A stretch of 64,000 bases of DNA, from NCBI RefSeq assembly GCF_012044895.1, contig NZ_CP050695.1:1208501-1272500 (forward strand), given 5' to 3'. This DNA comes from Aquisalimonas sp. 2447. GTDB taxonomy: Bacteria > Pseudomonadota > Gammaproteobacteria > Nitrococcales > Aquisalimonadaceae. The translations under genes and the position numbers were made by a program. Positions 13,151 through 31,307 of this stretch are shown piece by piece. The first letter of the stretch is position 1; every line of letters begins with the position of its first letter. The notes beneath the pieces are model-generated. The model saw only the letters and a list, made by a program, of their open reading frames with translations. It ran no database searches and was not told where the DNA came from.

Positions 13151-13389
13151 GCAGGAAATACCCTCCGGGCTTCAGCGTGTGTCGGGGTGGCGTCGCCGGT
13201 GCAGGACGCCCGTTCGTTTGAGACGAAATGCACCACTGTCTCGAAATCTGGTGCGTTGTGACGCAGTTGTTCACCCATCGCGCGCCAGTTTAGTTCATCA
13301 GCTCCCCGGAGTCACCCGCTACCGGTCCCTGTTTTCCGTGGCTGGCTGATATGATCGACGTTTCACCACGGGCGAGGCGCAAACGACAG

Positions 13390-14010
13390 ATGCATTCAAC
13401 GGATCCCGGTCCGGTCACCGGTGTGGTTCTTGCCGGTGGTCGGGCTACGCGCATGGGCGGAACCGACAAGGGGCTTCTGGAGGTGGCCGGCATCGCCATG
13501 GTGGACCACGTCCTGCAGCGTCTGCGTCCGCAGACCGAGGCGCTGGTGGTCAACGCCAACCGCAACCATGCAGACTACGCGACGCGCGGTTGTCCGGTGG
13601 TGGCGGACGCCTTCGGCGAATTCGCCGGCCCCCTGGCGGGCATGGCGGCGGGGCTTGCAGCGGCGCCCACGGACTGGTGCGTTACCGTGCCCTGCGACTC
13701 ACCGCTGGTGCCGCAGGATCTTGTCGCCCGGCTGGCCGCTGCCCTCCAGGCCCAGGGGGCGGACCTGGCGGTGGCCGAAGGTGCCGGGCGGATGCAGCCG
13801 GTCTTCGCCCTGCTGCCACGGCGTCTGTTGCCGGACCTCCAGGGCTTCCTGGAAGAGGGCGGGCGCAAGATCGACGCCTGGTACGGGCGTCATGCGGTGG
13901 CGCGGGCGGATTTCTCCGACAGCGAAGAGGCATTTCTCAACATCAACACACCTGAAGAGCGCGATCAGTTAGAAGGGCGACTGACGCCGGGAGGCAGGGC
14001 CGATGTCTGA
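13390..14010 (+). CDS. mobA: molybdenum cofactor guanylyltransferase
   Basis: MobA joins GMP to Mo-molybdopterin to form the bis-MGD cofactor used by DMSO-reductase family enzymes, including the formate dehydrogenase encoded at 26.4 kb. The 206-residue protein has the nucleotide-binding VVLAGGRATRMGGTDKGLLE (about residues 11-30) and VPCDSPLVP with the metal-binding Asp. The preferred start is ATG 13390; ATG 13351 is in frame but adds a basic extension. The 3' end overlaps the next gene by eight bases. Confidence 0.93.
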   Translation: MHSTDPGPVTGVVLAGGRATRMGGTDKGLLEVAGIAMVDHVLQRLRPQTEALVVNANRNHADYATRGCPVVADAFGEFAGPLAGMAAGLAAAPTDWCVTVPCDSPLVPQDLVARLAAALQAQGADLAVAEGAGRMQPVFALLPRRLLPDLQGFLEEGGRKIDAWYGRHAVARADFSDSEEAFLNINTPEERDQLEGRLTPGGRADV

Positions 14011-16647: not shown

Positions 16648-17400
16648 TTACCGACGGATTGTCTCCACCAGCAGTCCCGGGTGACGGAGACTGGTGAGCA
16701 CCACACGGTCGAAGCGGTCGCTGCCGGCGAGAATATGCCGGGCCACTGCCCGGGCCGCCTCCAGGTCCACGTCGCCGTCCACCATGTTCAGTACCGGGAT
16801 TGCCGTGACGCCCTCGGTACCGCGCTGGAGGCCTTGCGGATGAGTAAACAGGCGCGCCATGGTGGCCGGGGTCAGGAGCTGTTCCTGTTGCATGCCGGTG
16901 ACCTCCAGGACCTGCTCCAGCCGGTGCGCAATTCGCTCGTTCACCGGGCGGGCCAGGGCGTGTACCGAGCCCACCAGCAGCACCACGTCGGCACCGGCGG
17001 GGATCACCGGTTCGTCCTCCCGCGGGGCCTTGATGCGGCGCATGCGGGCACCGTCAGCCTTGACCACCGTGAGGTCGAATTCACCTGCGCGGTGGATGGC
17101 GGTCAGGGTTTCGGCGCTGACTCCGGCCAGGCGCCCGGCCTTGTCCGAGGGCTGCGCATAGAGAACGCGATTGGCCCGATGGCCTGGCACCCGCTCTCGC
17201 AGATTGCTCTCGCTGTCCACGATCAGGGCTGCCTCCAGGCGCCGCGGAGGTTCATAGGTGAACACCGTAGCGGTCATCGCCGTGCGCCCGGGGTGGTGCT
17301 GCAGTAGATGATAGAGCAGGGTCTTCTTGCCGCCGGCGCCAACCGCGCAGACTATGCCGCGTTCGGCGTTCAGGGCCTCGAGCAGCGGCTGTACCGTCAT
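16648..17400 (-). CDS. yqeC: YqeC-like putative selenium/molybdenum hydroxylase accessory protein
   Basis: A 250-residue protein with a P-loop-like start, IVCAVGAGGKKTLLYHLL (about residues 16-33), followed by TATVFTYEPPRR and the VKADGARMRRIKAPREDEPVIP signature, as in YqeC proteins. YqeC is linked by genome context to selenium-dependent molybdenum hydroxylases, but its biochemistry is not settled. ATG 17400 overlaps the stop of the upstream BNR gene (ATGA). Its position among mobA and moeA fits a Mo-enzyme maturation role, which is inference. Confidence 0.78.
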   Translation of the reverse strand: MTVQPLLEALNAERGIVCAVGAGGKKTLLYHLLQHHPGRTAMTATVFTYEPPRRLEAALIVDSESNLRERVPGHRANRVLYAQPSDKAGRLAGVSAETLTAIHRAGEFDLTVVKADGARMRRIKAPREDEPVIPAGADVVLLVGSVHALARPVNERIAHRLEQVLEVTGMQQEQLLTPATMARLFTHPQGLQRGTEGVTAIPVLNMVDGDVDLEAARAVARHILAGSDRFDRVVLTSLRHPGLLVETIRR

Positions 17401-18524
17401 TTTTGGTCCCCCTCCGGCACAACCCGGGCTTGGACCGAGAGAATGCGCGGCAAAAAGGCGGTCAGGGGCTGCCAGTTCTCGCCGCGGTTGCGGCTGGCAA
17501 ACAGGTGGCCGCTGGAGGTGCCGAAGTACACTCCGCACTCAGGCAGATCATCCACCGCCATCGCATCCCGCAGCACCGTGACGTACGCGTGCTGCTGGGG
17601 CAGGCCGTCGGTGAGCGGCGTCCAGCTGGCACCGGCATCGCCGGTGCGGTAGACGCGCAGGCGACCATCCACGGCGGTGCGCAGGTGATTGCTGTCGATG
17701 GGGATGACGTACAGGGAATCCGGCGCATCACGTTCGGTGACCGCAACGTAGCCGAAGTCGCTGGGCAGTCCGGCGGAGATCTCAGTCCAGGAATCACCGG
17801 CGTCGTCGCTACGGTAGACGCCGTTGTAACACTGTCGGTAGAGGCGGTCGGAGTTCCTTGGATGGGCCACCAGGCGGTGAATGTTGTGCCCGGTGTGCGG
17901 ACATTCCTCGGGCAGGTGTTCCGCGCGGACGCCGCGATTGATGGGTTGCCAGGTAGCGCCGGCATCGTCACTGCGGTAGGCACCGCCGGCGGAGACGGCC
18001 GCAAACAGACGCCGCGGGTGGTCTGCTGCCACTTGGATGGAGTGGACGAAGAAACCGCCCTTGGCCGGCTCCCATTGGGCACGGGTCGAGTGATGGTTCA
18101 GCGCGTCCACTCCGGCCCAGTGGTTGCCGGCGTCGGTGCTGAAGAACAGCCCCGCGGGATCGATGCCGGCGTACAGCATGTCGGGGTCGTCCGCCGGGCC
18201 GGGAGCCAGATGCCAGACGGCACGCAGGGCAGAGTCGTGTTCCCCCACCGGGTGCATCGGCGGCTGCGGCAACGGCTCCCAGTGGCGCCCGTCGTCATCC
18301 GTGCGGTAGACGTGGGCGCCCCAGATCAGGTGATTGGCCGCGGCATAGCCCCGCCCGGGGCGGCGTGGATCCAGCCAGGCGTGGGTGATTTCGTAGCCGG
18401 CGATCAGCGGCCCCTCCATGCGCCATGTCTCCCGGTGCGGGTCGCTCTCAAGGCGAAACAGTCCCTTCTGGGTGCCCACCAGCAGCACGACTCGCGTGCC
18501 GCCATCGGGTGCGGTGTGGCGCAT
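17397..18524 (-). CDS. BNR/sialidase-like beta-propeller protein
   Basis: A 375-residue protein without a signal peptide. It contains repeated Asp-box (BNR) motifs of the S/T-x-D-x-G-x-x-W type: RTDDDGRHW, STDAGNHW, SDDAGATW, SDDAGDSW, TGDAGASW and SRNRGENW. These mark the blades of a six- or seven-bladed propeller. Asp boxes are structural, so sialidase activity is not implied. It overlaps yqeC by four bases and is divergent from the JAMM/ubiquitin-fold pair, sharing a 97-base intergenic region with it. Genes of this type recur next to CysO-like proteins as far as I recall, which suggests a functional link. Confidence 0.8.
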   Translation of the reverse strand: MRHTAPDGGTRVVLLVGTQKGLFRLESDPHRETWRMEGPLIAGYEITHAWLDPRRPGRGYAAANHLIWGAHVYRTDDDGRHWEPLPQPPMHPVGEHDSALRAVWHLAPGPADDPDMLYAGIDPAGLFFSTDAGNHWAGVDALNHHSTRAQWEPAKGGFFVHSIQVAADHPRRLFAAVSAGGAYRSDDAGATWQPINRGVRAEHLPEECPHTGHNIHRLVAHPRNSDRLYRQCYNGVYRSDDAGDSWTEISAGLPSDFGYVAVTERDAPDSLYVIPIDSNHLRTAVDGRLRVYRTGDAGASWTPLTDGLPQQHAYVTVLRDAMAVDDLPECGVYFGTSSGHLFASRNRGENWQPLTAFLPRILSVQARVVPEGDQK

Positions 18525-18605
18525 GGTTCTCCCCGGGTTGCCTTCGATGTGATGTTCACAACGGTTCGTATTGCACCAGAAACGGCGCCTGCCTGCGATG
18601 GCGAG

Positions 18606-18620
18606 CTGGTACCATACCAG
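18606..18620. promoter_or_regulatory. perfect inverted repeat touching the JAMM start codon
   Basis: CTGGTA at 18606-18611 and TACCAG at 18615-18620 form a 6-3-6 palindrome ending one base before ATG 18622. Its place in the divergent region suggests an operator controlling the JAMM/MoaD-like genes and perhaps the BNR gene. There is no ribosome site between it and the ATG, so the message may be leaderless or the true start lies further in. Confidence 0.4.
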
Positions 18621-18621
18621 T

Positions 18622-19116
18622 ATGAGCAATGCTGCAGGATCGCCCCCGGGGCGCCAGGTCGGAAAACGGCAAAACCCGGGTGACAATGACGTGGTGCTCA
18701 AGCCGGAACTTCAGCACCAGCTTCTGGAGTATGCCAGGGCGAGCTGGCCTGAAGAGGCATGTGGCCTGCTGCTGGGTCGTGGTGACAGGGTCGATGAGCT
18801 GGCTCGGTTACGGAATTGCTCCGGCTCGCCGCAAGAGCACTACGCACTGGATCCACTGGACTACATGCACGCCGAGCAACAGTGCGAGAATCGGGGGCTG
18901 ACCGTGCTGGGAATCTGGCACAGCCATCCGGATTCCGCCGGAGTGCCTTCGGTCACCGACGAGCGTGACGCCTGGCCTGGCTGGCTGTACATCATTGTCG
19001 GCCGCCCGCGGGGGGAGGCGCCGGACGTGCGTGGCTGGCGCCTGGATGGCGGACGGTTCAGGCAAGCGGTGCTGCGTTTCGCGGCAAACGATGACACGGC
19101 ACCAGGATCGCGATGA
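18622..19116 (+). CDS. M67-family JAMM metalloprotease (Mec-like)
   Basis: A 164-residue JAB1/MPN/Mov34-type zinc peptidase. The full JAMM site is present: a Glu in PEEACG (residues 44-45), then His100 and His102, Ser110 and Asp113 in HSHPDSAGVPSVTD, matching HxHx7Sx2D. In mycobacteria the homologue Mec cleaves cysteine from the C-terminus of CysO. The ATG at 18622 lacks a ribosome site; GTG 18691 is an alternative and would remove a polar lead of 23 residues. The stop overlaps the start of the ubiquitin-fold gene by four bases, so the two are made together. Confidence 0.88.
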   Translation: MSNAAGSPPGRQVGKRQNPGDNDVVLKPELQHQLLEYARASWPEEACGLLLGRGDRVDELARLRNCSGSPQEHYALDPLDYMHAEQQCENRGLTVLGIWHSHPDSAGVPSVTDERDAWPGWLYIIVGRPRGEAPDVRGWRLDGGRFRQAVLRFAANDDTAPGSR

Positions 19117-19418
19117 CGACAGTAACAGTACGCATTCCCTCGCCCTTGCGCTCCCACGCGGACGGCCAGGCGGAACTGACGGTCAGCGGTGCCACAGTGG
19201 GCGAGATTCTGGTGGAACTCGCGCGGCGGTATCCGGCCCTGGGTCAGCGGCTTCTGACCCCCGAGGGTGCGGTGCGGCCGTACGTGAACCTGTTCGTGGG
19301 CGAACGCAATCTCAACGCGCTGGCCGGCCTGGACACCCCGCTCCAGGGCGGCGAAGTGATTTCCGTCCTGCCTGCCGTCGCCGGTGGCCAGAGGGGGAAA
19401 GGTATCCGCCGCGCCTGA
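19113..19418 (+). CDS. MoaD/ThiS/CysO-family ubiquitin-fold sulfur carrier with C-terminal tail
   Basis: A 101-residue beta-grasp protein. The ISVLPAVAGG ending (residues 83-92) closely matches the end of mycobacterial CysO. Such carriers are activated at the terminal diglycine and hold sulfur as a thiocarboxylate. Here nine more residues, QRGKGIRRA, follow the diglycine, so a protease would have to expose it first. The overlapping upstream gene encodes a JAMM protease suited to that. No E1-like MoeB/ThiF or CysM lies in the window. It could instead act as MoaD for molybdopterin, given moeA next door, but the sequence is closer to CysO. Confidence 0.85.
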   Translation: MTTVTVRIPSPLRSHADGQAELTVSGATVGEILVELARRYPALGQRLLTPEGAVRPYVNLFVGERNLNALAGLDTPLQGGEVISVLPAVAGGQRGKGIRRA

Positions 19419-19436: not shown

Positions 19437-20714
19437 TTACGCCATCACTCCCTCGAACGGCTGTACTTCCACCAACTCGCCTGCGGGGACGTTGCCGCTG
19501 TCGTGGGGGATGACAATAAAGCAGTTGGCCCGGCTCACCGAGCTGAGGATTCCCGAACCCTGGCTGCCCGTGGATGTGACGAACAGTTCGCCGTGGTCGT
19601 CGCGCTGCAGGATGCCGCGCTGGAACTCCGTGCGCCCGGGACGCTTGCGCAGCTCTTCGCCGGCACGGACCGGGAAGCCCGTGGGTCGTTCCGGCTCCTC
19701 GCCCATGAGCCGTTTCAGGGCCGGCTGCACGAACTGGTACCAGGTGGCCACCACCGAGACCGGATTGCCCGGCAGGCCGAAGAAGCGCGCCTCACCGATG
19801 GTTCCGAAGGCCAGGGGGCGGCCGGGGCGCATGGCGATCTTCCAGAAGCCCACCTTGCCGAGCCGGTTCATGATCTGTTTGACGAAGTCTGCTTCACCCA
19901 CGGAGACACCACCGGAGGTGATAATGGCATCGGCAAAGGATGCCGCGTCGGCGAAGGCGCGCTCCATGGTGTCCGGATCATCGCTGACCACGCCCATGTC
20001 TGTGGCCTCGACGCCCAGATGCTGCAGCATGCCGTAGAGGCTGTAGCGGTTGCTGTCGTAGATCTCGCCGGCGCGCAGGGTGCTGCCGGCGGTGCGTAGT
20101 TCATCGCCGGTGGAGAAGAAGGCCACCCGCACCCGCCGGTACACCGGCACTTCGACCAGACCCAGGCTGCCGAGCACACCCAGCTCCGCCGGTCGTACGC
20201 GTTGGCCCCGGCGCAGCACGACAGCGTCATGGCGCAAGTCTTCGCCGGCGGCGCGGACGTTCTGTCCAGGCGTTTCCCCTGCGGTAATCACCACCTGGTC
20301 GCCATCGACCCGTGTGTTCTCCTGCATCACCACGGTGTCCGCACCCGCTGGGATCGGGGCGCCGGTCATGATACGCACGCACTCGCCTTGCTGCAGGGTG
20401 GTCTCCATGGCCTGGCCCGCCAGAATGGTGCCGACGCAGCGCAATCCGCTGGTTCCGGTGGCGGGGATGTCGGCGCCGCGCAGTGCGTAGCCGTCCATGG
20501 CGGAGTTGTCGTGGAAGGGGACGTTGACCGGGGAGTGGATGTCGTGTGCCAGCACCCGGTCCAGCGCGTTACGCAACGCGACCTGTTCGACGCCGCGCAC
20601 GGCCTGGATCTCACTGCTGATGCGTGCCCAGGCGGCGTCTACGGACAGGGACTGGGGATCGTGATCGCTCTGGCAGGACTGGTCGTTTTGAACTGTGTGA
20701 TCGCTTTCGTTCAT
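19437..20714 (-). CDS. moeA: molybdopterin molybdotransferase
   Basis: MoeA inserts molybdate into adenylylated molybdopterin. The 425-residue protein has the standard layout: NVPFHDNSAMDGYALRG (about 66-82), GECVRIMTGAPIPAGADTVVMQE, the STGDEL and SGGVSVGEADFVK segments of the MogA-like domain, and MRPGRPLAFG...FGLPGNPVSVV. An extra acidic N-terminus of about 25 residues precedes the domain. It is convergent with the CysO-like gene and divergent from the DUF6494 gene. Confidence 0.95.
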   Translation of the reverse strand: MNESDHTVQNDQSCQSDHDPQSLSVDAAWARISSEIQAVRGVEQVALRNALDRVLAHDIHSPVNVPFHDNSAMDGYALRGADIPATGTSGLRCVGTILAGQAMETTLQQGECVRIMTGAPIPAGADTVVMQENTRVDGDQVVITAGETPGQNVRAAGEDLRHDAVVLRRGQRVRPAELGVLGSLGLVEVPVYRRVRVAFFSTGDELRTAGSTLRAGEIYDSNRYSLYGMLQHLGVEATDMGVVSDDPDTMERAFADAASFADAIITSGGVSVGEADFVKQIMNRLGKVGFWKIAMRPGRPLAFGTIGEARFFGLPGNPVSVVATWYQFVQPALKRLMGEEPERPTGFPVRAGEELRKRPGRTEFQRGILQRDDHGELFVTSTGSQGSGILSSVSRANCFIVIPHDSGNVPAGELVEVQPFEGVMA

Positions 20715-21039: not shown

Positions 21040-21987
21040 TCACGCGGCCCAGATCAGGTGGCCGCTGTCACCGAAGCTGTAACCGCCCAGCTCCCGTGCC
21101 CGTTCCTGGCAGGCCGGCTCCAGCAGGGTCTCAAGGATCCGGCGAAGAAGAACCCGGAAGTAGACTCCCCGCGTCATGGCCAGATCCACCGCTTCCCAGC
21201 CCAGGGGAATGAAGGCCAGGCCGTGGCTTATGGCGGCGCCCCGACTCCCCGGCGCCGCATCCGCCTCATCCGCGGCGACGCGTGCCGCAGCCTCGCTCTC
21301 GGAAAGGGCGGTATGGTGGCTACGGGCGCGGACATGGGCGCTGTTCAAGCCGCGTTCCGCCAGGGCATCCAGCAGAAAACGGTCGCTGCCGGAGCCGTCC
21401 TGGCGCATGACCCAGCGTTCCAGGGTTGCGAAGGCTTCCTCTGCATCGCAACGTGCGTCCGGACGAACCATGAGTCCCTGCTCGCGGGCGAAGGCGCGAA
21501 CCAGGATCCATTCCCGGTGCTGCGGGTGACTCCGCAGTAGCGCGGCATGCCGCCGGTGGCTTTCTGCCAGTGGTCCCCAGTGGATGCTGCACACGTCCGC
21601 CCGGCGGCGGGCCAGTTGGCACAGACCCTGGCGCGTCCCGGTGCCGGTGTAGCAGATCAGTGCCTGGTCCCCGGTGGCGGCGGTGACCGCCTCGCTGACA
21701 AAACGCAGCAGCGGGTCGCAGCCACCGACCACGGCGATGCGGTCGGTGAGTACCCCCCCGTAACTGGACTCCATCAGCCACTGATCCACCAGGTCTCTGG
21801 GAAACAGCCACTTGCCTGTGGCCTTGGTGGCCGGCAGGCGACCCTCGCCGGCCAGCGCGTAGATCTTCTTTTCGTTCAGTCGCAGATAGGCCGCCGTCTC
21901 GTGAACGTTCATGAAACGGGGCGGTTCTACGGCAGTGCCCGGTTGCCGCGAGTCAACTGCGGGGTGCCCGGTGGATTCAGGGCTCAT
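21040..21987 (-). CDS. excisionase-type HTH regulator with PBP-like sensor domain
   Basis: A 315-residue protein starting at ATG 21987, right after a strong GGAGG site. An excisionase/MerR-like DNA-binding domain at about residues 26-75 (MNVHETAAYLRLNEKKIYALAGEGRLPATKATGKWLF region) precedes a periplasmic-binding-protein-like domain without signal peptide (about 80-310). This layout is found in regulators of Mo/W metabolism, where the PBP-like domain may sense oxyanions. It is divergent from the formate dehydrogenase locus, so it likely regulates that locus. Ligand and target are inferred. Confidence 0.82.
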   Translation of the reverse strand: MSPESTGHPAVDSRQPGTAVEPPRFMNVHETAAYLRLNEKKIYALAGEGRLPATKATGKWLFPRDLVDQWLMESSYGGVLTDRIAVVGGCDPLLRFVSEAVTAATGDQALICYTGTGTRQGLCQLARRRADVCSIHWGPLAESHRRHAALLRSHPQHREWILVRAFAREQGLMVRPDARCDAEEAFATLERWVMRQDGSGSDRFLLDALAERGLNSAHVRARSHHTALSESEAAARVAADEADAAPGSRGAAISHGLAFIPLGWEAVDLAMTRGVYFRVLLRRILETLLEPACQERARELGGYSFGDSGHLIWAA

Positions 21988-22338
21988 GGGACCTCCTGCC
22001 TGGCCTCGCCAGTACCGCTGAACGGGGAGCCGCTGAGCAGCGTGCGCGTGGCGCCGCACGCCTGCATGGTGCGGGGCAATTCAAGAACCGTGCCCTCGGG
22101 GCGCCTGGCCGCATGGCGGCCAGACAAGCCACAGCGCATGGGGAGGTGGCTGTCCCGGTGGTACCGGTGAACTGGCGAGTGCGAGATGAAATGACCCAGT
22201 GGCGAAGGGGATTGGTGCATTGTGTCGCCATGGTTCCGTTCGCCGACGCGCAGGTGTGACGCGTCGCGACCGGCGGACGGTCCTCCTGGACGAAGGGAAT
22301 CAGAGGCCTGGCCGACGTGGCGCCCGGATGAGGGGCGA
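21988..22338. other. divergent regulatory region upstream of the formate dehydrogenase locus
   Basis: This gap of about 350 bases holds no convincing gene. It lies between the divergent regulator and DUF3305 genes, directly upstream of a sigma-54-type promoter, where activator sites are expected. One perfect inverted repeat, CCGGT-GGT-ACCGG at 22155-22167, is a candidate protein-binding site. No other structure was recognised. Confidence 0.4.
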
Positions 22339-22391: not shown

Positions 22392-22895
22392 ATGAATTCA
22401 TTGCAGGAAGGCGCGAAACCGGCGTCCTATCATGGTGTGACGTCCATTCCAGTGGGGCTGATGATGGCCTCGGAGCAGGTCGACGGTCAGTGGCGCTCCC
22501 GGGTCGACGGCATCCTCTCCGGCGCCCGCTTTGAAGCGGCGCAACCGCAGCAGGAACTGGTGCGGGATGGTGAAGGCCTGCGCCTCTACCTGTGGAAAGG
22601 TTTCCGGCTGCACCTGCGCAAGCGTTACGTGGATGACTACGCGCTCAACATCCGCAATGATCCTCCGGCGGTGTTCGTGGTTGGTCGTTATGCCGCGCCC
22701 GGTGAGTTTCAGCCGTTCCTCGTCACCCTGAGCATGGACGAGGCGCAGAAACTCGACGCGCCGGAACTGCGGGATTCCCATGAGCATGTGGTGCAGGCGC
22801 CCATGCCACCGGAAATCTACCGTTGGCTGGAGGAGTTCGTGCTGGATCACTATGAGCCGCGCAAGCCCAAGGGTAAACGCCGGCGGGAGGAGTAA
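22392..22895 (+). CDS. DUF3305 formate dehydrogenase accessory protein
   Basis: A 167-residue soluble protein. The start of the domain, TSIPVGLMMASEQVDGQWRSR, is typical of DUF3305, which accompanies respiratory formate dehydrogenase genes. The C-terminus is basic (EPRKPKGKRRREE). No biochemical function is known; a role in enzyme assembly is inferred from constant co-location. ATG 22392 follows a GAGG site. DUF3306 begins five bases after its stop, so the two form a transcription unit. Confidence 0.8.
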   Translation: MNSLQEGAKPASYHGVTSIPVGLMMASEQVDGQWRSRVDGILSGARFEAAQPQQELVRDGEGLRLYLWKGFRLHLRKRYVDDYALNIRNDPPAVFVVGRYAAPGEFQPFLVTLSMDEAQKLDAPELRDSHEHVVQAPMPPEIYRWLEEFVLDHYEPRKPKGKRRREE

Positions 22896-22899
22896 TGCG

Positions 22900-23619
22900 A
22901 TGACGGATCGCCCCCTTACCGACGACGAAAACGGTGGTGCCGTTGGTTTCCTGCAGCGTTGGTCCCGGCGCAAGGTGCATGGGGACGACGTGGAGGAAGC
23001 GCAGGAGCATCACGCCGAGGCGAGACCGGCCCCGGAGGATGCCGCAGGTGCGGACGCAGCGCCCGATGACCAGGGAGATGCCCGCATCGATCCGCGTACC
23101 GGCAAGCGCTTCGATGAGCTGACTGATGACGACATGCCGGCGCTATCGGAACTGAGTGCGGACTCCGACGTCAGCGCCTTTTTTGCCAAGGGCGTCAGTC
23201 AGGCCGTCCGGCTGGCTGCGCTTCGGACGCTGTGGCACTCCGCCAAATTCAACAAGGTGGACCTCATGGCGGAGTATTCCGGTGATTTCACCAACTACGA
23301 GAAACTCGGCAACGTCGTGACCCACGACATGCACCGGGCCGTGAAACGGGAGCTGGATCGCGCCCAAGAGCGCCAGGACGCCCTGGAGGCCAGTGCCCGC
23401 GAGGATGCGGAGGCCCGGCAGGCCGGCGTTGAGCGTCATGATAAGGCGTCGGATGATGCCCCGGAATCGGACGACCTGGGTCACAATGACCCAGGTGGGT
23501 CGCGGCATTCTGTATCAAATGGTCCCGTCGAAGGTGGTGAGAGGCCGCCGGAGTCCGGCGCCGAAGATGCAGAGGAGGCCCGTGAGGAGGAGTCACAAGG
23601 CTCCCGAGGGGGCGTATAA
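22900..23619 (+). CDS. DUF3306 formate dehydrogenase accessory protein
   Basis: A 239-residue, very acidic soluble protein. The conserved part is FLQRWSRRKV near residue 18 and LTDDDMPALSELSADSDVSAFFAKGVSQAVRLAALRTLWHS region at about 72-115, with FNKVDLMAEYSGDFTNY after it; this is the DUF3306 core. The last 80 residues are low-complexity Glu/Asp/Gly. The start ATG follows GGGAGGAG, overlapping the DUF3305 end. Function unknown; assembly of formate dehydrogenase is inferred from context. Confidence 0.8.
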   Translation: MTDRPLTDDENGGAVGFLQRWSRRKVHGDDVEEAQEHHAEARPAPEDAAGADAAPDDQGDARIDPRTGKRFDELTDDDMPALSELSADSDVSAFFAKGVSQAVRLAALRTLWHSAKFNKVDLMAEYSGDFTNYEKLGNVVTHDMHRAVKRELDRAQERQDALEASAREDAEARQAGVERHDKASDDAPESDDLGHNDPGGSRHSVSNGPVEGGERPPESGAEDAEEAREEESQGSRGGV

Positions 23620-23691
23620 CACTGTTTCTACGCTGATCCCCGGGAGCGGGTGCCTCAGGCCTGCGACGTTCCCGCTGGGTGCCGTCTGAAT

Positions 23692-23707
23692 TGGTACGCA
23701 GCATGCA
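23692..23707 (+). promoter_or_regulatory. second sigma-54-type promoter, before the structural formate dehydrogenase genes
   Basis: TGGTACGCAGCATGCA keeps the invariant GG (23693-23694) and GC (23705-23706) at the same spacing as the promoter at 22339 and matches 10 of the 12 fixed consensus bases. It lies in the 139-base gap before the polyferredoxin gene, with a predicted start near 23718. Confidence 0.6.
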
Positions 23708-23758
23708 TATTCAAACTGCAGACAGATCACAATAAGGGCGACTACAGCCTGGAGGAGA

Positions 23759-25456
23759 ATGACTAACGAGATGTCGATGTTGCCGACCCTGGCGCTGCGC
23801 GATGCAGGCGTTGCCGGTGCCGCCCGGCGCGCTGCCTTGGAAGCGGTGCTTGCCCACGAGGCAGAAGCGACGTCCCTGGTGGGCTATCGCTCAGCGGGTT
23901 ATGTGCTCATTGTCGGCTCTGCCGTCGACGGTCTGGAGTGCGCGGACCGTCTGCGCGGGCATCTGCACTGCACCGTGCTTGCCGACGCGCCGGCCCCCGG
24001 CGAGTTGCCGGACGGAGCCCGGGCCGCGCAGCAGGACGAGCAGCACGTGCGGCTCGTGTACGGGCAGGCGACCGAGCTTCAGGGACATCTCGGGCGGTTC
24101 AGTGTCCACCTGGAGACGCCTCAGGGCGAAGATCTGGACCTCGCCGCGCTGACCAACGACGATCATCCCTACTTCGATTTGGTCCTGGACCTGCGCCGGG
24201 AGCCGGCTCTGGGCATGGACCTGCCACCCTTCGGTTACTACGCGCCCCGGGGTGATGCCGAGGCGCTGGAGCGGGCGCTGGCGGAAATGCCGGAAATGAC
24301 CGGGGAGTTCGAGAAGCCGCGGTTCTTCAATTACAGCCCGGATATCTGCGCTCACGGTGACAGCGGTCTCACCGGCTGTACCCGTTGTCTGGACGCCTGT
24401 CCCACCGACGCCATCCGTTCCATCGGCGATATGGTGGAGGTGGATCCCTATCTGTGTCAGGGCGGCGGTACCTGTGCGACAGCCTGTCCCACCGGTGCAA
24501 TTATCTACGCCTATCCGGGCCCCAGGGATACGCTGTCCGCAGTGCGCACCATGCTTGCCCGCTTTCGCGATGGCGGCGGCGAGGATCCCGTCGTCCTTTT
24601 CTACGACAGTAGCCACGGACTCGATCTGCTGCGCGAGGGGGCTGCCGAGCTGCCCGAGCAGGTGCTGCCGTTCGCCGTGGAAGAGGTCGGCTCCGTGGGC
24701 ATGGACACCTGGCTTTCCACCCTGGCCTACGGGGCGGCGCGAGTGGAGCTTCTCGATCATGCCCAGGTGCCGCCCACCGTGCGTGGCGAACTCGAGGCGC
24801 AGCTGCTGTTCGCGCGTTCCCTGCTGGAAGGGCTCGGTCATGACACCGGCCGGATCCAGATGCGCTACGGGGAGCTGCCGACGGCGTCGGAATGTGTCAG
24901 CGTGCCCCGTGCGCTGCCTGCCGCCACCTTTGAGACGTTCAACGAAAAGCGCGGCACCCTGCGCCTGGCGCTGGACCATCTGCGTGATGTCAGCGGCGGC
25001 GCCGCGAAGGCGGTTTTCGATCTGCCCGCCGGCGCACCTTTCGGCCAGGTGCTGGTGGACGAGAACGCCTGCACGCTGTGCATGGCCTGCCCCCAGGTTT
25101 GTCCGACCCGGGCCTTGACCGATGCCGGTGACAAGCCGCAGCTGAATTTCACCGAAGATCTCTGCGTCCAGTGCGGACTGTGTCAGACGGCCTGCCCGGA
25201 AGATGCTATCACGCTGCAGCCGCGCTTCCTGGCCGACTGGGAGCAGCGCCGGCAGACCCGCGTTGTCAACGAGGAAGAACCGTTCTGCTGCGTGAGCTGC
25301 GGCAAGCCCTTCGCCACGCCGAGCACCATCGAGCGGATGCTGAGCCGGCTGGACGGACACCACATGTTCGAAACCGAGGAACAGCGGCGGCGGCTGAAGA
25401 TGTGCGGTGACTGCCGGGTGAAGGACATGTATGCCGCGGAAATGGACAACGCATGA
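23759..25456 (+). CDS. polyferredoxin-like 4Fe-4S protein of the formate dehydrogenase locus
   Basis: A 565-residue protein without a signal peptide. Four [4Fe-4S] motifs are visible in two pairs: CTRCLDACPTDAI and CQGGGTCATACPTGAI (about residues 208-245), then CTLCMACPQVCPTRAL and CVQCGLCQTACPEDAI (about 438-484). A C-terminal CCVSCGKPF...CGDCR set may bind zinc. Such proteins occur between DUF3306 and the TorD chaperone in formate dehydrogenase loci and may supply electrons or clusters during maturation; this is inferred. ATG 23759 is very close to its GGAGGAG site, so ATG 23771 or 23777 may be the true start. Confidence 0.85.
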   Translation: MTNEMSMLPTLALRDAGVAGAARRAALEAVLAHEAEATSLVGYRSAGYVLIVGSAVDGLECADRLRGHLHCTVLADAPAPGELPDGARAAQQDEQHVRLVYGQATELQGHLGRFSVHLETPQGEDLDLAALTNDDHPYFDLVLDLRREPALGMDLPPFGYYAPRGDAEALERALAEMPEMTGEFEKPRFFNYSPDICAHGDSGLTGCTRCLDACPTDAIRSIGDMVEVDPYLCQGGGTCATACPTGAIIYAYPGPRDTLSAVRTMLARFRDGGGEDPVVLFYDSSHGLDLLREGAAELPEQVLPFAVEEVGSVGMDTWLSTLAYGAARVELLDHAQVPPTVRGELEAQLLFARSLLEGLGHDTGRIQMRYGELPTASECVSVPRALPAATFETFNEKRGTLRLALDHLRDVSGGAAKAVFDLPAGAPFGQVLVDENACTLCMACPQVCPTRALTDAGDKPQLNFTEDLCVQCGLCQTACPEDAITLQPRFLADWEQRRQTRVVNEEEPFCCVSCGKPFATPSTIERMLSRLDGHHMFETEEQRRRLKMCGDCRVKDMYAAEMDNA

Positions 25457-25480
25457 GCGAAAGGATCAACGGGAGATCGC

Positions 25481-26083
25481 ATGGCTGAATCATCCTCCAA
25501 TGCACGCCTGAGCCACGAGGATGCCCTGCGCGTCGGCACCTACGGCGTGCTGGGTGCGCTCATGGCGGGGCCGCCCGCGCGGGACCTGCTGGAGCGGCTG
25601 TCCACGGCCGGTGGCGAGGAAGGCAGTGACGGTATTGGCAAGGCGTGGTCCGCCGTGGCAGTGGCGGCCCAGCGTGCCGATCCTGCGGAAGTGCGCCAGG
25701 AGTATAGCGACGTGTTTATCGGTGTGTCGCAGGGGGAAATCACTCCCTACGCCTCCTGGTACCTCACCGGCTCGCTGATGGAACGGCCTCTGGTGGAGCT
25801 GCGCCAGTCCCTAAAGGCGCTGGGCGTGGAACGCCACCGGGGTGTCAAGGAGCCCGAAGACCACGCCGGTGCGCTTCTGGAAACCATGGCGCTGTTGATC
25901 AACGCCGACGATGTCTCCTTTGACCGGGAGCAGGCGTTTTTCCAGGCACACCTGGAGCCGTGGCTGAAAGATTGTTTTACGGACGTGCAGGAAGCGGCGT
26001 CCGCTGCGTTCTACCGCCCCGTGGGGCTGTTGGGCGCCGAGTTTATGGATCTTGAAACGAAATACTACCGGATGCCCGTGTAA
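25481..26083 (+). CDS. TorD/DmsD-family molybdoenzyme chaperone
   Basis: A 200-residue all-helical cytoplasmic protein. QEYSDVFIGVSQGEITPYASWYLTG at about residues 73-97 and the EPEDHAGALLETMALL segment (about 126-141) are the TorD family signature, with the conserved Glu-Pro-x-Asp-His. These chaperones bind the Tat signal peptide of a molybdoenzyme until the cofactor is inserted. Its client here is most likely FdhA, two genes downstream, which has a Tat signal. Confidence 0.9.
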   Translation: MAESSSNARLSHEDALRVGTYGVLGALMAGPPARDLLERLSTAGGEEGSDGIGKAWSAVAVAAQRADPAEVRQEYSDVFIGVSQGEITPYASWYLTGSLMERPLVELRQSLKALGVERHRGVKEPEDHAGALLETMALLINADDVSFDREQAFFQAHLEPWLKDCFTDVQEAASAAFYRPVGLLGAEFMDLETKYYRMPV

Positions 26084-26139
26084 ACGGGACTTCCGGACCG
26101 GGCACTCCGTGCCAGGGCAGCGTGAGAGAGGAGCAGACC

Positions 26140-26358
26140 ATGAGCAAGACCAACGGCGACTTCAAGGCCGATGCTTCGCGCCGGCGTTTCCTGCGGGGTG
26201 TGGCCATGACCGGCGGCGCCGCCGTATTTGCCGCCGGCACCGGTGGCGCCTTCGCGGCGGAAACGGACACGGCGGAAGCCCCGCGCGAGACGGAAGGCAA
26301 AGCGGGCTACCACGAGACCAAGCACATCCGTGATTACTACCAGCGCGCGGACTTCTGA
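26140..26358 (+). CDS. small Tat-signal protein of formate dehydrogenase loci
   Basis: A 72-residue protein beginning at ATG 26140 after GAGAGGAG. It carries a complete twin-arginine signal, SRRRFLRGVAMTGGAA, but only about 35 residues follow cleavage, ending GYHETKHIRDYYQRADF. It fits the small 'formate dehydrogenase region TAT target' family known only from such loci. It may be exported alone or bind the enzyme; neither is shown. It lies 44 bases before fdhA. Confidence 0.85.
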   Translation: MSKTNGDFKADASRRRFLRGVAMTGGAAVFAAGTGGAFAAETDTAEAPRETEGKAGYHETKHIRDYYQRADF

Positions 26359-26402
26359 AGCGTTGCGGCGACAAACGGGATTCGGAGTGAGGAGAACACA
26401 CC

Positions 26403-29285
26403 ATGAAATTGGTTAAGAAGCAGAGCACCGGCGGGGCCGCCCCCGCATCAGGGCTGCTTGGCAAGGCCATCAATCGCCGCACCTTCCTCAAGGGGACCGG
26501 GCTTGCGGCGGGTGGCGTAGCCGTGGCCGGCATGCTGCCGACGTCGATGGTCAAAAAGGCCCATGCGGCGCGGCCCTACAATCCGCAGGGTGACATCACC
26601 GAGGTGAAGACCGTGTGCACCCACTGTTCCGTGGGGTGTGGCGTGATCGCCGAGGTGCAGGACGGCGTCTGGGTCGGCCAGGAGCCCAACCTGGACAGCC
26701 CGCTGAACCTGGGGGCGCACTGCGCCAAGGGCGCGTCGCTGCGCAACCACGGTCACAGCACCCGGCGTACCAAGTACCCCATGCGCATGCGCAATGGGCG
26801 CTGGGAGCGGATTACCTGGGAAGAGGCCATCGAAGAGATCGGCGACAAGCTGCTGGAGCTTCGCGAGGAGTCCGGTCCGGACACGCTCTGGTTCGCCGGC
26901 TCGTCCAAGGCCAGCAACGAGGGCTCCTACCTGCAGCGCAAGTTTGCCGCCTTCTGGGGCTCCAATAACGTCGACCACCAGGCGCGCATCTGCCACTCCA
27001 CCACTGTGGCCGGCGTTGCGAACACCTGGGGCTACGGCGCCATGACCAACTCGTACAACGACATGAACCACTCCAAGTGCATTGTCATGTGCGGGTCGAA
27101 TGCCGCCGAGGCCCATCCGGTGTCCATGCAGATGATCCTGCGCGGCAAGGAGAAGGGTGCCAAGCTGATTGTCATGGATCCCCGCTTCACGCGGACCGCG
27201 GCGCATTCGGATATCTACGTCCGCATGCGTTCCGGTACCGACGTGCCGCTGATCTGGGGCATTCTCTGGCACATCTTCGAGAATGAATGGGAAGACACCG
27301 AATATCTGCAGCAGCGGGTGTGGGGCATGGACCGCGTCCGCGAGGAAGTGGCCAAGTGGACCCCGGATGAAGTCGAGCGGGTGACAGGTGTCTCCGAGGA
27401 GGCGCTCTACGAAGTTGCCAAGACCATGGCGGAGAACCGCCCCGGTACCTTCGTCTGGTGCATGGGCGGGACCCAGCACACCATCGGCAACAACTACGTT
27501 CGCGCCTACAACTGCCTGCAGCTGGCGCTGGGCAACATCGGCAAGACCGGCGGTGGGGCAAACATCTTCCGCGGTCACGACAATGTGCAGGGCGCCACCG
27601 ATGTGGGCCCCAATGCCCACATCCTGCCGGGTTATTTCCCGCTCTCCGAGGGTGGCTGGCAGCACTGGGCCCGGGTCTGGGACGTGGACTACGACTACCT
27701 GGTCGGCCGGTTCGACGACGGCGAATACGACGATGGCCAGGGCGGCACCATCAAGCCCATGAACAACGTCGGCATCCCGGTGTCCCGCTGGATCGATGGC
27801 GTCCTCGAGGATCCGGACAACATCTCCCAGAAGGACAACATCCGCGCGGTGATGATGTGGGGCCACGCCCCCAACTCCCAGTCGCGCGGGCCGGAGATGA
27901 AGGAGGCCATGGAGAAGCTGGATCTCCTGGTGGTCATCGATCCCTATCCGACGGTGACGGCGGTGCTGGGCGAGCGGCAGAACAACACCTATCTGCTGCC
28001 GGCCTGCACCCAGTTCGAGACCCGCGGTTCGGTGACGGCCTCCAACCGCTCCATCCAGTGGCGTGATCAGGTGATCGAGCCGCTGTTCGAGGGCAAGCCC
28101 GACCACACTATCGCCTACCTGCTGGCACGGAAGCTCGGGTTCGCCGACGAGATGTTCAAGAACATCTCCATCGATCATGGCGAAGAGCCCAACGTCGAGG
28201 ACGTGCTGCGGGAGATCAACAGCGGCACCTGGACCATCGGCTACACCGGGCAGAGTCCGGAGCGGCTGAAGGCGCACATGCGTAACCAGGCCACCTTCGA
28301 CGTGGAATCGCTTCAGGCCAAGGGGGGCGAGCTGGACGGTGAGTACTACGGCCTGCCGTGGCCCTGCTGGGGCACCGCGGAGATGGGCCATGTCGGTACG
28401 CCGAACCTCTATGACACCAGTAAGGCCGTGGCCGACGGCGGGCTCACCTTCCGTGCCCGGTTCGGCACCGAGTACGAGGGCGAGAACCTGCTGGCGGAGG
28501 GCTCCTATTCCCTGGGGTCGGAGATCGAGGACGGCTATCCGGAGATCACCGCCGACATGATCCGCCAGCTCGGCTGGTGGAACGAGCTCACCGACGAGGA
28601 GAAGGCCGCGGCCGAAGGTCGCGACTGGAAGACGGACCTCTCCGGCGGGCTGCAGCGGGTGGCCATCAACCACGGGCTGGCCCCGTTCGGTAACGCCAAG
28701 GCCCGCTGCATGGTCTGGAACTTCCCGGACCCGATCCCGGTGCACCGTGAGCCGCTCTACACGCCGCGCTACGACCTGGTCAGCGACTACCCGACCTACG
28801 AGGACCGCCGGGCGTTCTACCGGCTGCCCACACGTTGGGAGTCCATCCAGGCCCAGGACTACTCCGGCGACTTCCCGCTGATCCACACCAGCGGACGTCT
28901 CGTGGAGTACGAGGGCGGTGGTGAAGAGACCCGCTCCAATCCCTGGCTTGCCGAGCTCAAGCAGGACATGTTCGTCGAGATCAACCCGGCCGATGCCAAC
29001 GACGCCGGGGTGCGGGACGGACAAATGGTCTGGCTCGAGGGGCCGGAGGGCGGTCGCATCCGGGTCAAGGCTCTGGTGACGCAACGTGTCGGTCGCGGCA
29101 CGGTGTTCACGCCGTTCCACTTCGGTGGGCACTTCCAGGGCGAGGACCTCATCGATCGGTACCCCGAGGGCGCAGCCCCCTACGTGCGCGGTGATTCCAC
29201 CAATACCGCCACCACGTATGGCTATGACTCGGTGACCCAGATGCAGGAAACCAAGACCACGCTGTGCCGCGTGACACCGGCCTGA
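26403..29285 (+). CDS. fdhA: respiratory formate dehydrogenase, catalytic (alpha) subunit
   Basis: A 960-residue enzyme oxidising formate to CO2 with Mo/W-bis-MGD in the periplasm. The Tat signal NRRTFLKG is at residues 24-31. A [4Fe-4S] cluster is bound by Cys72, Cys75, Cys79 and Cys107. The active-site residue is Cys197 in ARICHST, where E. coli FdnG has selenocysteine, so this is a Cys-type enzyme and no selenium machinery is needed. The C-terminal molybdopterin dinucleotide-binding domain (about 815-960) includes FTPFHFGGH. It is the central gene of a locus with chaperone, beta and gamma subunits. Confidence 0.96.
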   Translation: MKLVKKQSTGGAAPASGLLGKAINRRTFLKGTGLAAGGVAVAGMLPTSMVKKAHAARPYNPQGDITEVKTVCTHCSVGCGVIAEVQDGVWVGQEPNLDSPLNLGAHCAKGASLRNHGHSTRRTKYPMRMRNGRWERITWEEAIEEIGDKLLELREESGPDTLWFAGSSKASNEGSYLQRKFAAFWGSNNVDHQARICHSTTVAGVANTWGYGAMTNSYNDMNHSKCIVMCGSNAAEAHPVSMQMILRGKEKGAKLIVMDPRFTRTAAHSDIYVRMRSGTDVPLIWGILWHIFENEWEDTEYLQQRVWGMDRVREEVAKWTPDEVERVTGVSEEALYEVAKTMAENRPGTFVWCMGGTQHTIGNNYVRAYNCLQLALGNIGKTGGGANIFRGHDNVQGATDVGPNAHILPGYFPLSEGGWQHWARVWDVDYDYLVGRFDDGEYDDGQGGTIKPMNNVGIPVSRWIDGVLEDPDNISQKDNIRAVMMWGHAPNSQSRGPEMKEAMEKLDLLVVIDPYPTVTAVLGERQNNTYLLPACTQFETRGSVTASNRSIQWRDQVIEPLFEGKPDHTIAYLLARKLGFADEMFKNISIDHGEEPNVEDVLREINSGTWTIGYTGQSPERLKAHMRNQATFDVESLQAKGGELDGEYYGLPWPCWGTAEMGHVGTPNLYDTSKAVADGGLTFRARFGTEYEGENLLAEGSYSLGSEIEDGYPEITADMIRQLGWWNELTDEEKAAAEGRDWKTDLSGGLQRVAINHGLAPFGNAKARCMVWNFPDPIPVHREPLYTPRYDLVSDYPTYEDRRAFYRLPTRWESIQAQDYSGDFPLIHTSGRLVEYEGGGEETRSNPWLAELKQDMFVEINPADANDAGVRDGQMVWLEGPEGGRIRVKALVTQRVGRGTVFTPFHFGGHFQGEDLIDRYPEGAAPYVRGDSTNTATTYGYDSVTQMQETKTTLCRVTPA

Positions 29286-29311
29286 GCCCGAATTGAGAGG
29301 AGAATGCCGTC

Positions 29312-29902
29312 ATGGCAAGAATGAAGTTTCTCTGTGACGCCGAACGCTGCATCGAGTGCCAGGCCTGTGTGACTGCCTGCAAGAACGAGCATGAAGTGCC
29401 GTGGGGCGTGAATCGGCGCCGGGTCATCGTCATGAACGACGGTCAGCCCGGCGAAAAAGCCATCTCCGTGGCCTGCATGCACTGTACCGATGCGCCATGC
29501 GCCGCGGTATGTCCGGTGGATTGCTTCTACACCACTGCGGACGGGATCGTGCTGCACGACAAGGACCTGTGCATCGGCTGCGGCTACTGCTTCTACGCCT
29601 GTCCCTTCGGGGCGCCGCAGTACCCGCAGCAGACGGCTTTCGGCGTCCGCGGCAAGATGGACAAGTGCACCTTCTGCGCGGGCGGGCCGGAGCCGGCCCA
29701 CTCCCAGGAGGAGCTGACCAAGTACGGCACCAACCGGGTGGAAGAGGGCAAGCTGCCGCTGTGTGCGGAGATGTGTGCCACCAAGGCGCTCATCGCGGGT
29801 GACGGCAACGTGATTGCCGACATCTACCGCAAGCGGGTCATGACCCGGGGTGGCCGGCCGCAGACCTGGGGCTGGCAGTCCGCCTACGGTCAGGACGTGT
29901 GA
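29312..29902 (+). CDS. fdhB: formate dehydrogenase, iron-sulfur (beta) subunit
   Basis: A 196-residue electron-transfer subunit binding four [4Fe-4S] clusters. Cys groups are CIECQACVTACKNEHE (residues 13-28), CMHCTDAPCAAVCPVDC (about 55-71), CIGCGYCFYACPFGAPQ (about 88-104), and CTFC plus CAEMCATKAL. It lacks its own signal and lacks the C-terminal membrane anchor of FdnH, so it is probably carried out with FdhA through the Tat system. It passes electrons from FdhA to the cytochrome b subunit encoded downstream. Confidence 0.94.
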   Translation: MARMKFLCDAERCIECQACVTACKNEHEVPWGVNRRRVIVMNDGQPGEKAISVACMHCTDAPCAAVCPVDCFYTTADGIVLHDKDLCIGCGYCFYACPFGAPQYPQQTAFGVRGKMDKCTFCAGGPEPAHSQEELTKYGTNRVEEGKLPLCAEMCATKALIAGDGNVIADIYRKRVMTRGGRPQTWGWQSAYGQDV

Positions 29903-29982
29903 CGGGGTACCGCCGGGGCTACGGCCCCGGCGGCTCGGCTCGCTGTAGAAGAACAACAGGAACGCTGAGAGAGGAGCATTCC

Positions 29983-30177
29983 ATGATGCCGAAAAAACTG
30001 ACCCTGTCCGCCGTCGCCGCCCTGAGCCTGGGGCTGCTGGCTGGCTGTTCCGATGTGACGCTCTATGAGCCCGGGGTCTACAAGGGTTCGGGAGATGACG
30101 CCGCATCCGAAGAGGCAGCGGAACGTCGGGCCGGTAGCCTGAGAGATCGGGCCCAGCAAGCCCATACGGACCGCTAG
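29983..30177 (+). CDS. small lipoprotein of the formate dehydrogenase operon
   Basis: A 64-residue protein with a lipoprotein signal: basic start MMPKKLT, hydrophobic core, and lipobox LLAGC (Cys24). The mature part is short and polar: TLYEPGVYKGSGDDAASEE. It lies between fdhB and fdhC with a GAGAGGAG ribosome site. Similar short lipoproteins occur at this position in related loci. It may help attach or assemble the enzyme at the membrane; function is not known. Confidence 0.7.
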   Translation: MMPKKLTLSAVAALSLGLLAGCSDVTLYEPGVYKGSGDDAASEEAAERRAGSLRDRAQQAHTDR

Positions 30178-30194
30178 GTGCGGAGGAGATCGCC

Positions 30195-31307
30195 ATGAGC
30201 AAGCATCCTGATCCGGCCGCCCGGGCAAAACGGCGGTGGCGTTCCATGCTGTGGACCATACTGGCCATTGTCTTTCTGGCGGTGGCGCTGCCGTCGGCGA
30301 GCTACCTGTTTGCGCAAACAGGCGCCGGCGAGCAGCAACGGACCTTCTCGGAGCGCAGCGAGACCAATCCGAGGTCCGACATGTGGCGGGACGGCCGGCG
30401 CGGAGAGGGTGGTTTCACCACCCAGACCGGGCCCTACGTCACCAACCAGATGATGACCAACGTCGGCGAGAACTACCGGCAGCTGCGCACGGGGCCGTTG
30501 ATGACGGCGGGTGGCTGGCTGCTGGCCATTGCCTTCTTCGCCGTTCTCGCCTTCTATCTGGTGAGTGGCCAGAAGAAGATCGAGGGTGGCCGCTCGGGGC
30601 AGACGGTGGTGCGCTGGAAGGCGTACGAACGAGCCCTGCACTGGATTACCGCGGCCTGCTTCATCATCCTGGCCATTACTGGTCTCAGCCTGCTGTTCGG
30701 CCGCGCGGTACTGATCCCGATCTTCGGTCACCAGGGGTTCGCAGCCTACGCCGAGTTGGCCTACTGGGCCCACAACGTGGTGGGGCCGGTGTTCTCGGTG
30801 GGGGTGCTGCTGATGATCGTGCTGTTCATCAAGCACAACATCCCCAACAGGACCGACCTGGAGTGGTTCAAGAAGGGTGGGGGTATTATCGGCAACAAGC
30901 ACCCCTCGGCCGGCAAGATGAACGGCGGCGAGAAAGTGTGGTTCTGGCTGGGGCTCGTGGTGCTCGGGTTGGCGGTGATCATCACCGGCTTCATTGCGCT
31001 GTTCCCCAACTGGGGCTTCCAGACCCGTGAGATCATGTCCTGGTCGCTGCTGATTCACGCCTCGGCGGCTATCGCCTGGATTGCTTTCTTCCTGGGGCAC
31101 GCCTATATCGGCACACTGGGGACCGAAGGCGCCCTGGAGGGCATGACCCGTGGACGTGTGGATACGGCCTGGGCCAAGCAGCACCACGACCTCTGGTACG
31201 AGGAGGTGCTGGCCGCCGGCGAGAAACCAGTGTCCGAGGACCAGCTCAAGGAACGGGAGAAACAGGGTGCGCCCGGAGGTGCGCCGGCGGGGCAGCAGGG
31301 TTCCTGA
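30195..31307 (+). CDS. fdhC: formate dehydrogenase, cytochrome b556 (gamma) subunit
   Basis: A 370-residue membrane protein that anchors the enzyme and reduces quinone. It has an N-terminal transmembrane helix (about 17-37), a long periplasmic stretch, another helix near residues 95-117, then a four-helix cytochrome b domain. Candidate haem ligands include His in RALHWITAACFIILAITG (about residue 150) and the WSLLIHASAAIAWIAFFLGHAY helix. FGHQGFAAYAELAYWAHNVVGP is characteristic. The gene closes the operon; a clear terminator follows at 31330. Confidence 0.93.
   Translation: MSKHPDPAARAKRRWRSMLWTILAIVFLAVALPSASYLFAQTGAGEQQRTFSERSETNPRSDMWRDGRRGEGGFTTQTGPYVTNQMMTNVGENYRQLRTGPLMTAGGWLLAIAFFAVLAFYLVSGQKKIEGGRSGQTVVRWKAYERALHWITAACFIILAITGLSLLFGRAVLIPIFGHQGFAAYAELAYWAHNVVGPVFSVGVLLMIVLFIKHNIPNRTDLEWFKKGGGIIGNKHPSAGKMNGGEKVWFWLGLVVLGLAVIITGFIALFPNWGFQTREIMSWSLLIHASAAIAWIAFFLGHAYIGTLGTEGALEGMTRGRVDTAWAKQHHDLWYEEVLAAGEKPVSEDQLKEREKQGAPGGAPAGQQGS

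Follow-up and report, generated by a model that had tools for sequence, protein, structure and literature searches.

How could a ubiquitin-like sulfur carrier be activated when its diglycine is buried under extra residues? This question is raised by a two-gene locus of Aquisalimonas sp. 2447, which we analyzed within a 64,000-nt stretch of its genome (the window). The first gene (18622..19116, + strand) encodes a JAMM/Prok-JAB metalloprotease (Prok-JAB E=5.2e-22), and the second (19113-19418, + strand; Pfam ThiS E=4.7e-10) encodes a 101-aa ubiquitin-like protein (Ubl). The ubiquitin-fold domain of the Ubl (19113..19388) ends in PAVAGG and is followed by a nine-codon tail and a stop codon (19389..19418), giving the C-terminus ISVLPAVAGG-QRGKGIRRA and then TGA. 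The two genes share an ATGA overlap, in which the Ubl ATG (19113-19115) lies on the TGA of the JAMM gene (19114-19116). With the JAMM start taken as 18622, positions 44 and 45 are Glu, 100 and 102 are His, 110 is Ser and 113 is Asp; the Glu, HSH, Ser and Asp elements of the metal site are thus complete, and the site is kept in 21/21 aligned sequences. The homologue alignment suggests that the true start lies further in, for example at a GTG at ~18691, which would leave the metal site unaffected. A preliminary description, made from the sequence alone, had reported the diglycine followed by nine residues, the start-stop overlap with a complete JAMM gene and a CysO-like identity. All three were confirmed, the last by a match of the family profile to M. 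tuberculosis CysO (3dwg, E=1.7e-25), and PAVAGG is invariant in the Ubl alignment. We ruled out that the tail is an annotation or sequencing artefact or chance, because the 85%-identical relative G004 stops at the same position, nine residues past the GG.

The relatives point to the origin of the tail. The Ubl is present in 14/14 genomes of the bacterial family. In nine of these, it forms the N-terminal domain of a ~480-residue chain with the Pfam order ThiS, Rhodanese, ThiF and with the JAMM gene in front; the fusion behind a JAMM gene also occurs in G015 and G018. The diglycine is internal in these chains (...PAVAGG-AGRARDRRLERLRQ...), which run into the rhodanese-E1 part at the position where the window gene has its tail. 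The rhodanese-E1 part is missing in five family genomes (the window genome G000, G001, G004, G005 and G007; hereafter the solo genomes). The residues after the GG number nine in G000, nine in G004 (HGPTAICRA) and 38 in G007, where they run into the antisense of moeA; in G001 and G005, the Ubl has nothing beyond the GG. The moeA match starts 31-84 bases past the GG codons in the solo genomes versus about 1.2-2.1 kb in the fused ones, and no single deletion breakpoint was readable in this comparison. A tree of the neighboring genes BNR, YqeC and MoeA, with weak support at several inner nodes, also included G015 and G018, two fused genomes from outside the family; parsimony on it makes the fusion the ancestral and the solo state the derived condition. 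The rhodanese-E1 losses on this tree fall on the G000/G004 line, on G001 and on the G005/G007 line, amounting to two or three events. The Ubl domain itself is too short for a tree that resolves deep relations.

The substitution pattern within the window gene agrees with such an origin. When G000 is compared with G004, 175/184 codon positions 1+2 (95%) and 62/92 third positions (67%) of the Ubl body are identical, and the body is under clear purifying selection. The corresponding figures for the tail are 12/18 and 7/9, with 3/9 residues in common, and body and tail differ at positions 1+2 (Fisher p=0.0006). Since the tail exhibits no protein-level constraint, and since moeA lies close behind the GG in solo genomes and far behind it in fused ones, the tail is best explained as a stub left by the lost rhodanese-E1 fusion, not as an evolved propeptide. 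We rejected a conserved propeptide on the divergence between G000 and G004. More generally, a functional role of the tail as propeptide or inhibitor, with recognition of its own, would fit its equal length in these two close relatives, but such a role is extremely improbable: positions 1+2 of the tail are no more conserved than third positions, and G001 and G005 have no tail. The preliminary description had treated the tail as a feature in its own right and proposed aligning homologues for its length and charge; both vary among relatives, and this part of the description was not supported. It had also named close relatives ending exactly at GG as evidence against its reading. Two such relatives, G001 and G005, exist, while G004 carries a nine-residue tail as the window gene does.

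Adenylation at a terminal glycine is impossible for a Ubl that is still fused or tailed. Processing by the JAMM enzyme is therefore the best reading of the pair, because the buried diglycine would have to be freed before activation, and the earlier proposal that the diglycine needs to be exposed is supported. Among 96 CysO-like genes, a JAMM gene was found in the locus for 21/22 of those having at least four residues or a fused domain past the GG, versus 24/74 of the rest. The association (Fisher p=1.3e-7) is mostly shared ancestry and is therefore only descriptive; independent-pair counts gave too few informative pairs for significance. Every fused gene sampled has a JAMM gene in its locus, and the L076 and L151 Ubls, which are encoded with a separate rhodanese-E1 and without a JAMM, end at GG. 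The actinobacterial CysO genes L040, L042, L065 and L095 extend 10-18 residues past the GG; L095, with a 15-residue tail, counts against the reading, since the stretch seen around it lacks a JAMM gene. The JAMM is intact in every solo genome, G001 and G005 included.

A second candidate substrate lies elsewhere in the genome. Three ThiS-family proteins are encoded in G000: ThiS, which ends in GG, the window Ubl and a single MoaD (C1:2763891-2764133, - strand). This MoaD is encoded beside MoaE and ends in LLPPVSGG followed by SHSMPPEAR, again nine residues; its stop codon overlaps the moaE start (TGATG). In the family, the MoaDs of ten genomes, including all solo genomes, have 5-9 residues of varied sequence past the GG, and those of three genomes of one genus (g3) end at GG, as do 33/33 MoaDs found in the rest of the order. 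When a JAMM was counted as present on a strong Prok-JAB match, MoaD tails occurred in 10/18 JAMM-bearing genomes of the order versus 0/28 without (p=1e-5), a distribution that probably reflects one or few origins. At most tailed moaD junctions, the tail codons contain or adjoin both a GGAGG-like ribosome-binding site and the start of moaE, and a TGG codon in the moaD of G006 stands at the position of the TGA in the g3 genomes, whose MoaD ends at GG. These two features suggest that the MoaD tails are stop losses that were tolerated. Such a loss in moaD would be harmful unless MoaD is trimmed. Since MoaD is tailed in G001 and G005, it would also explain why the JAMM is intact there, though the Ubl needs no trimming. 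The fusion in relatives and the tailed MoaD, neither of which the preliminary description could see, together argue for JAMM processing more strongly than the tail does by itself. Against a general role of the JAMM in maturation, the g3 genomes have a JAMM while their MoaD ends at GG, and another peptidase could trim the tails.

The same observations could be read as decay, with the CysO-like protein disused after the loss of the rhodanese-E1, its tail never removed and the JAMM kept just for MoaD. The unconstrained tail, its varying length among solo lineages, the retention of the JAMM everywhere and the tailed MoaD of every solo genome would all fit. We consider this improbable given the purifying selection on the Ubl body and the invariant PAVAGG.

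Maturation by the JAMM would have to be followed by activation, and the choice of enzymes in the genome is narrow. Whole-genome searches of G000 (3.97 Mb, one contig, complete) found a single real ThiF/E1, a MoeB without a rhodanese domain (C1:3238815). Two other weak ThiF matches were rejected by eye as a second E1, since they look like D-2-hydroxyacid-dehydrogenase-type and TrkA-like proteins. Likewise, there is a single canonical (non-RadC) JAMM, and two further weak matches look, by eye, like RadC-type proteins. The solo genomes G001, G005 and G007 have a single strong ThiF match each, and in most fused genomes a MoeB is encoded in addition to the fusion. The preliminary description had found no E1 or CysM nearby and suggested a shared MoeB. 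The first point is correct, as the whole genome contains one MoeB and one cysteine synthase far from the locus, and the second is strengthened, as MoeB is the only possible E1; it must therefore serve ThiS, MoaD and the Ubl, if these are activated at all. A precedent for sharing is MoeZR, one E1 for both MoaD and CysO (PMC3227635). In that system, however, MoeBR did not activate CysO and MoeZR alone did (PMC3227635), and we therefore only infer that a plain MoeB activates the window Ubl.

What would the activated carrier be used for? One answer is the Mec/CysO cysteine pathway, with the JAMM mainly freeing cysteine from a CysO-cysteine adduct of cysteine synthase and removing the tail by the same activity. 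The Ubl is clearly homologous to CysO, JAMM-CysO-CysM is the usual gene order in actinobacteria and others, and a JAMM-[Ubl-Rhod-E1]-cysteine synthase order occurs in other gammaproteobacteria (L157, L158 and L162). Moreover, the whole-genome search found no CysK in G000, leaving one cysteine synthase (C1:2076687). This enzyme, however, lies far from the locus, and its match to the enteric CysM (2jc3, E=6.8e-119) is much stronger than that to the M. tuberculosis CysM, which uses CysO (3dwg, E=3.4e-69). The genes conserved around the locus, moreover, belong to the molybdenum cofactor (Moco) and not to cysteine synthesis. With no cysteine synthase in the locus and the only one in the genome of the enteric kind by its match, the case for the cysteine route is weak, and we regard it as unlikely.

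The surroundings of the locus are a molybdenum-cofactor/formate-dehydrogenase neighborhood and not a cysteine operon. Behind the Ubl gene and convergent with it lies the gene of the molybdopterin molybdotransferase MoeA (19437..20714, - strand), followed by a regulator with an HTH and a PBP-like domain (21040..22059, - strand) that adjoins MoeA in several relatives. Adjoining Mo-enzyme genes (22392..31307, + strand) encode DUF3305 and DUF3306 proteins, a ferredoxin-type protein, a TorD-like chaperone, a formate-dehydrogenase-like alpha subunit, an Fe-S subunit and a cytochrome b. On the other side are a BNR/Vps10-repeat protein, a constant neighbor of the Ubl (17397..18701 as listed, - strand; its true start is probably downstream of 18701), a YqeC-family protein of the selenium/molybdenum hydroxylase maturation family (16648..17538, - strand; TIGR03172 over cut-off) and a MobA-like nucleotidyltransferase (13351..14010, + strand). 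The order TPR, YqeC, BNR, JAMM, Ubl[-rhodanese-E1], MoeA was seen across the family in all stretches long enough to read. Outside the family, L153, L155 and L156 (family f4 of the same order) have a same-strand BNR-YqeC-Ubl-MobA-like-MoeA arrangement without a JAMM, with MobA assigned by sequence motif and the Ubl ending exactly at GG; this gene order appears to tie the Ubl to Moco biosynthesis. In many other gammaproteobacteria (L167, L170-L174, L176-L178, L183 and L184), a BNR-repeat protein is encoded beside a ThiS-like Ubl ending in ALSGG, with no JAMM detected, and the BNR-Ubl pairing thus seems widespread in gammaproteobacteria. The genomic context favors molybdenum-enzyme maturation over cysteine synthesis as the end use of the CysO-like protein.

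This Moco neighborhood would also suit a modifier similar to the archaeal SAMPs, in which the Ubl is attached to proteins such as Moco enzymes or MoaE, the JAMM detaches it and trims the tail only incidentally. In Haloferax, MPT synthase is under reversible control by SAMP1/HvJAMM1 (PMC4443979), and the best NCBIfam matches of the pair are SAMP1 and desampylase. Both matches nevertheless fall under the curated NCBIfam cut-offs (55.3 vs 60 bits for SAMP1 and 92.2 vs 130 bits for desampylase), there is no direct sign of conjugation, and we judge this reading very unlikely.

We thus favor, with a probability of roughly two in three, the reading in which the JAMM is a maturation peptidase for Ubl sulfur carriers with a buried diglycine. 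In the ancestor of the family, the JAMM would have cut the Ubl-rhodanese-E1 chain after the diglycine, thereby separating the carrier from its activating enzyme. In the window lineage, the rhodanese-E1 would then have been deleted to leave the nine-residue stub, which the same JAMM would remove, and MoaD with its nine-residue tail would be a likely second substrate. The freed carriers would be adenylated by MoeB and would receive sulfur from another source. A stronger version, which we put forward tentatively and rate slightly below even odds, is that Moco synthesis in this family cannot do without the JAMM as a maturation enzyme. Here MoaD would always be synthesized as a precursor with a tail, the CysO-like carrier would once have formed one chain with the rhodanese-E1, and the protease would have permitted the loss of a stop past the diglycine and the placing of the moaE ribosome-binding site inside moaD. 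Should the JAMM free all of these proteins, Moco synthesis in this family would rely on a deubiquitinase-type enzyme.

In eukaryotes, ubiquitin is synthesized in precursor or fused form and proteases then release it; to our knowledge, bacterial examples of such precursor processing are few. Two of them are HcyS/HcyD of Wolinella and QbsE/QbsD of Pseudomonas, which act in methionine and thioquinolobactin pathways, respectively, and in which residues past the GG are removed by a nearby-encoded JAMM. They resemble the window pair in having short extra residues past the diglycine, but their tails comprise 1-2 residues and the window tail nine. The CysO-Mec-CysM system of M. tuberculosis shares with the window a homologous Ubl with an AVAGG end and a JAMM gene directly 5', as in many JAMM-CysO-CysM loci. 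In contrast, the diglycine of the window Ubl is not C-terminal as translated, the locus has no cysteine synthase and the one in the genome is of the enteric type by sequence, and the E1 is a plain MoeB, not a MoeZR with a rhodanese domain. Because several defining features fail, the window pair is not a member of that pathway as defined. Operon class 4b of Iyer et al. 2006 (PMC1779556) combines a JAB with an E1-rhodanese and, in some cases, ThiS/MoaD, and the accessible part of that paper predicts that the JAB frees fused ThiS/MoaD. The class resembles the fused relatives (G002, G003 and others) in gene content, unlike the window locus, which has no E1-rhodanese. In the same part of the paper, we found no description of a GG-Ubl fused to a rhodanese-E1, of its loss or of a short-tailed MoaD. 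As far as that part goes, the fusion, its reduction to a stub and the short-tailed MoaD in the same genomes are new here. One bacterial family shows together a Ubl fused to its own E1, a Ubl with a stub, a Ubl with a terminal GG and a MoaD with an acquired tail. A functional parallel is provided by JAMMs that cleave MoaD-MoaE (Deinococcus DRJAMM) and SAMP1-MoaE (Haloferax HvJAMM1), cleavage being needed for the activity of these proteins (PMC8832034; PMC4443979), and by the fused M. tuberculosis MoaD-MoaE (MoaX), which works only after cleavage at the diglycine by an unknown protease (PMC4326299). All of these have a Ubl with an internal GG that needs release, in a Moco setting, as in the family studied here. 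The downstream part differs, being a rhodanese-E1 or a short stub here, and MoaD is followed by a short tail instead of MoaE. Two features of a JAMM-processed pre-Ubl pair, residues past the GG of the Ubl and an adjoining JAMM with a complete metal site, are present in the window, and by analogy the pair likely works in the same way as these processed carriers.
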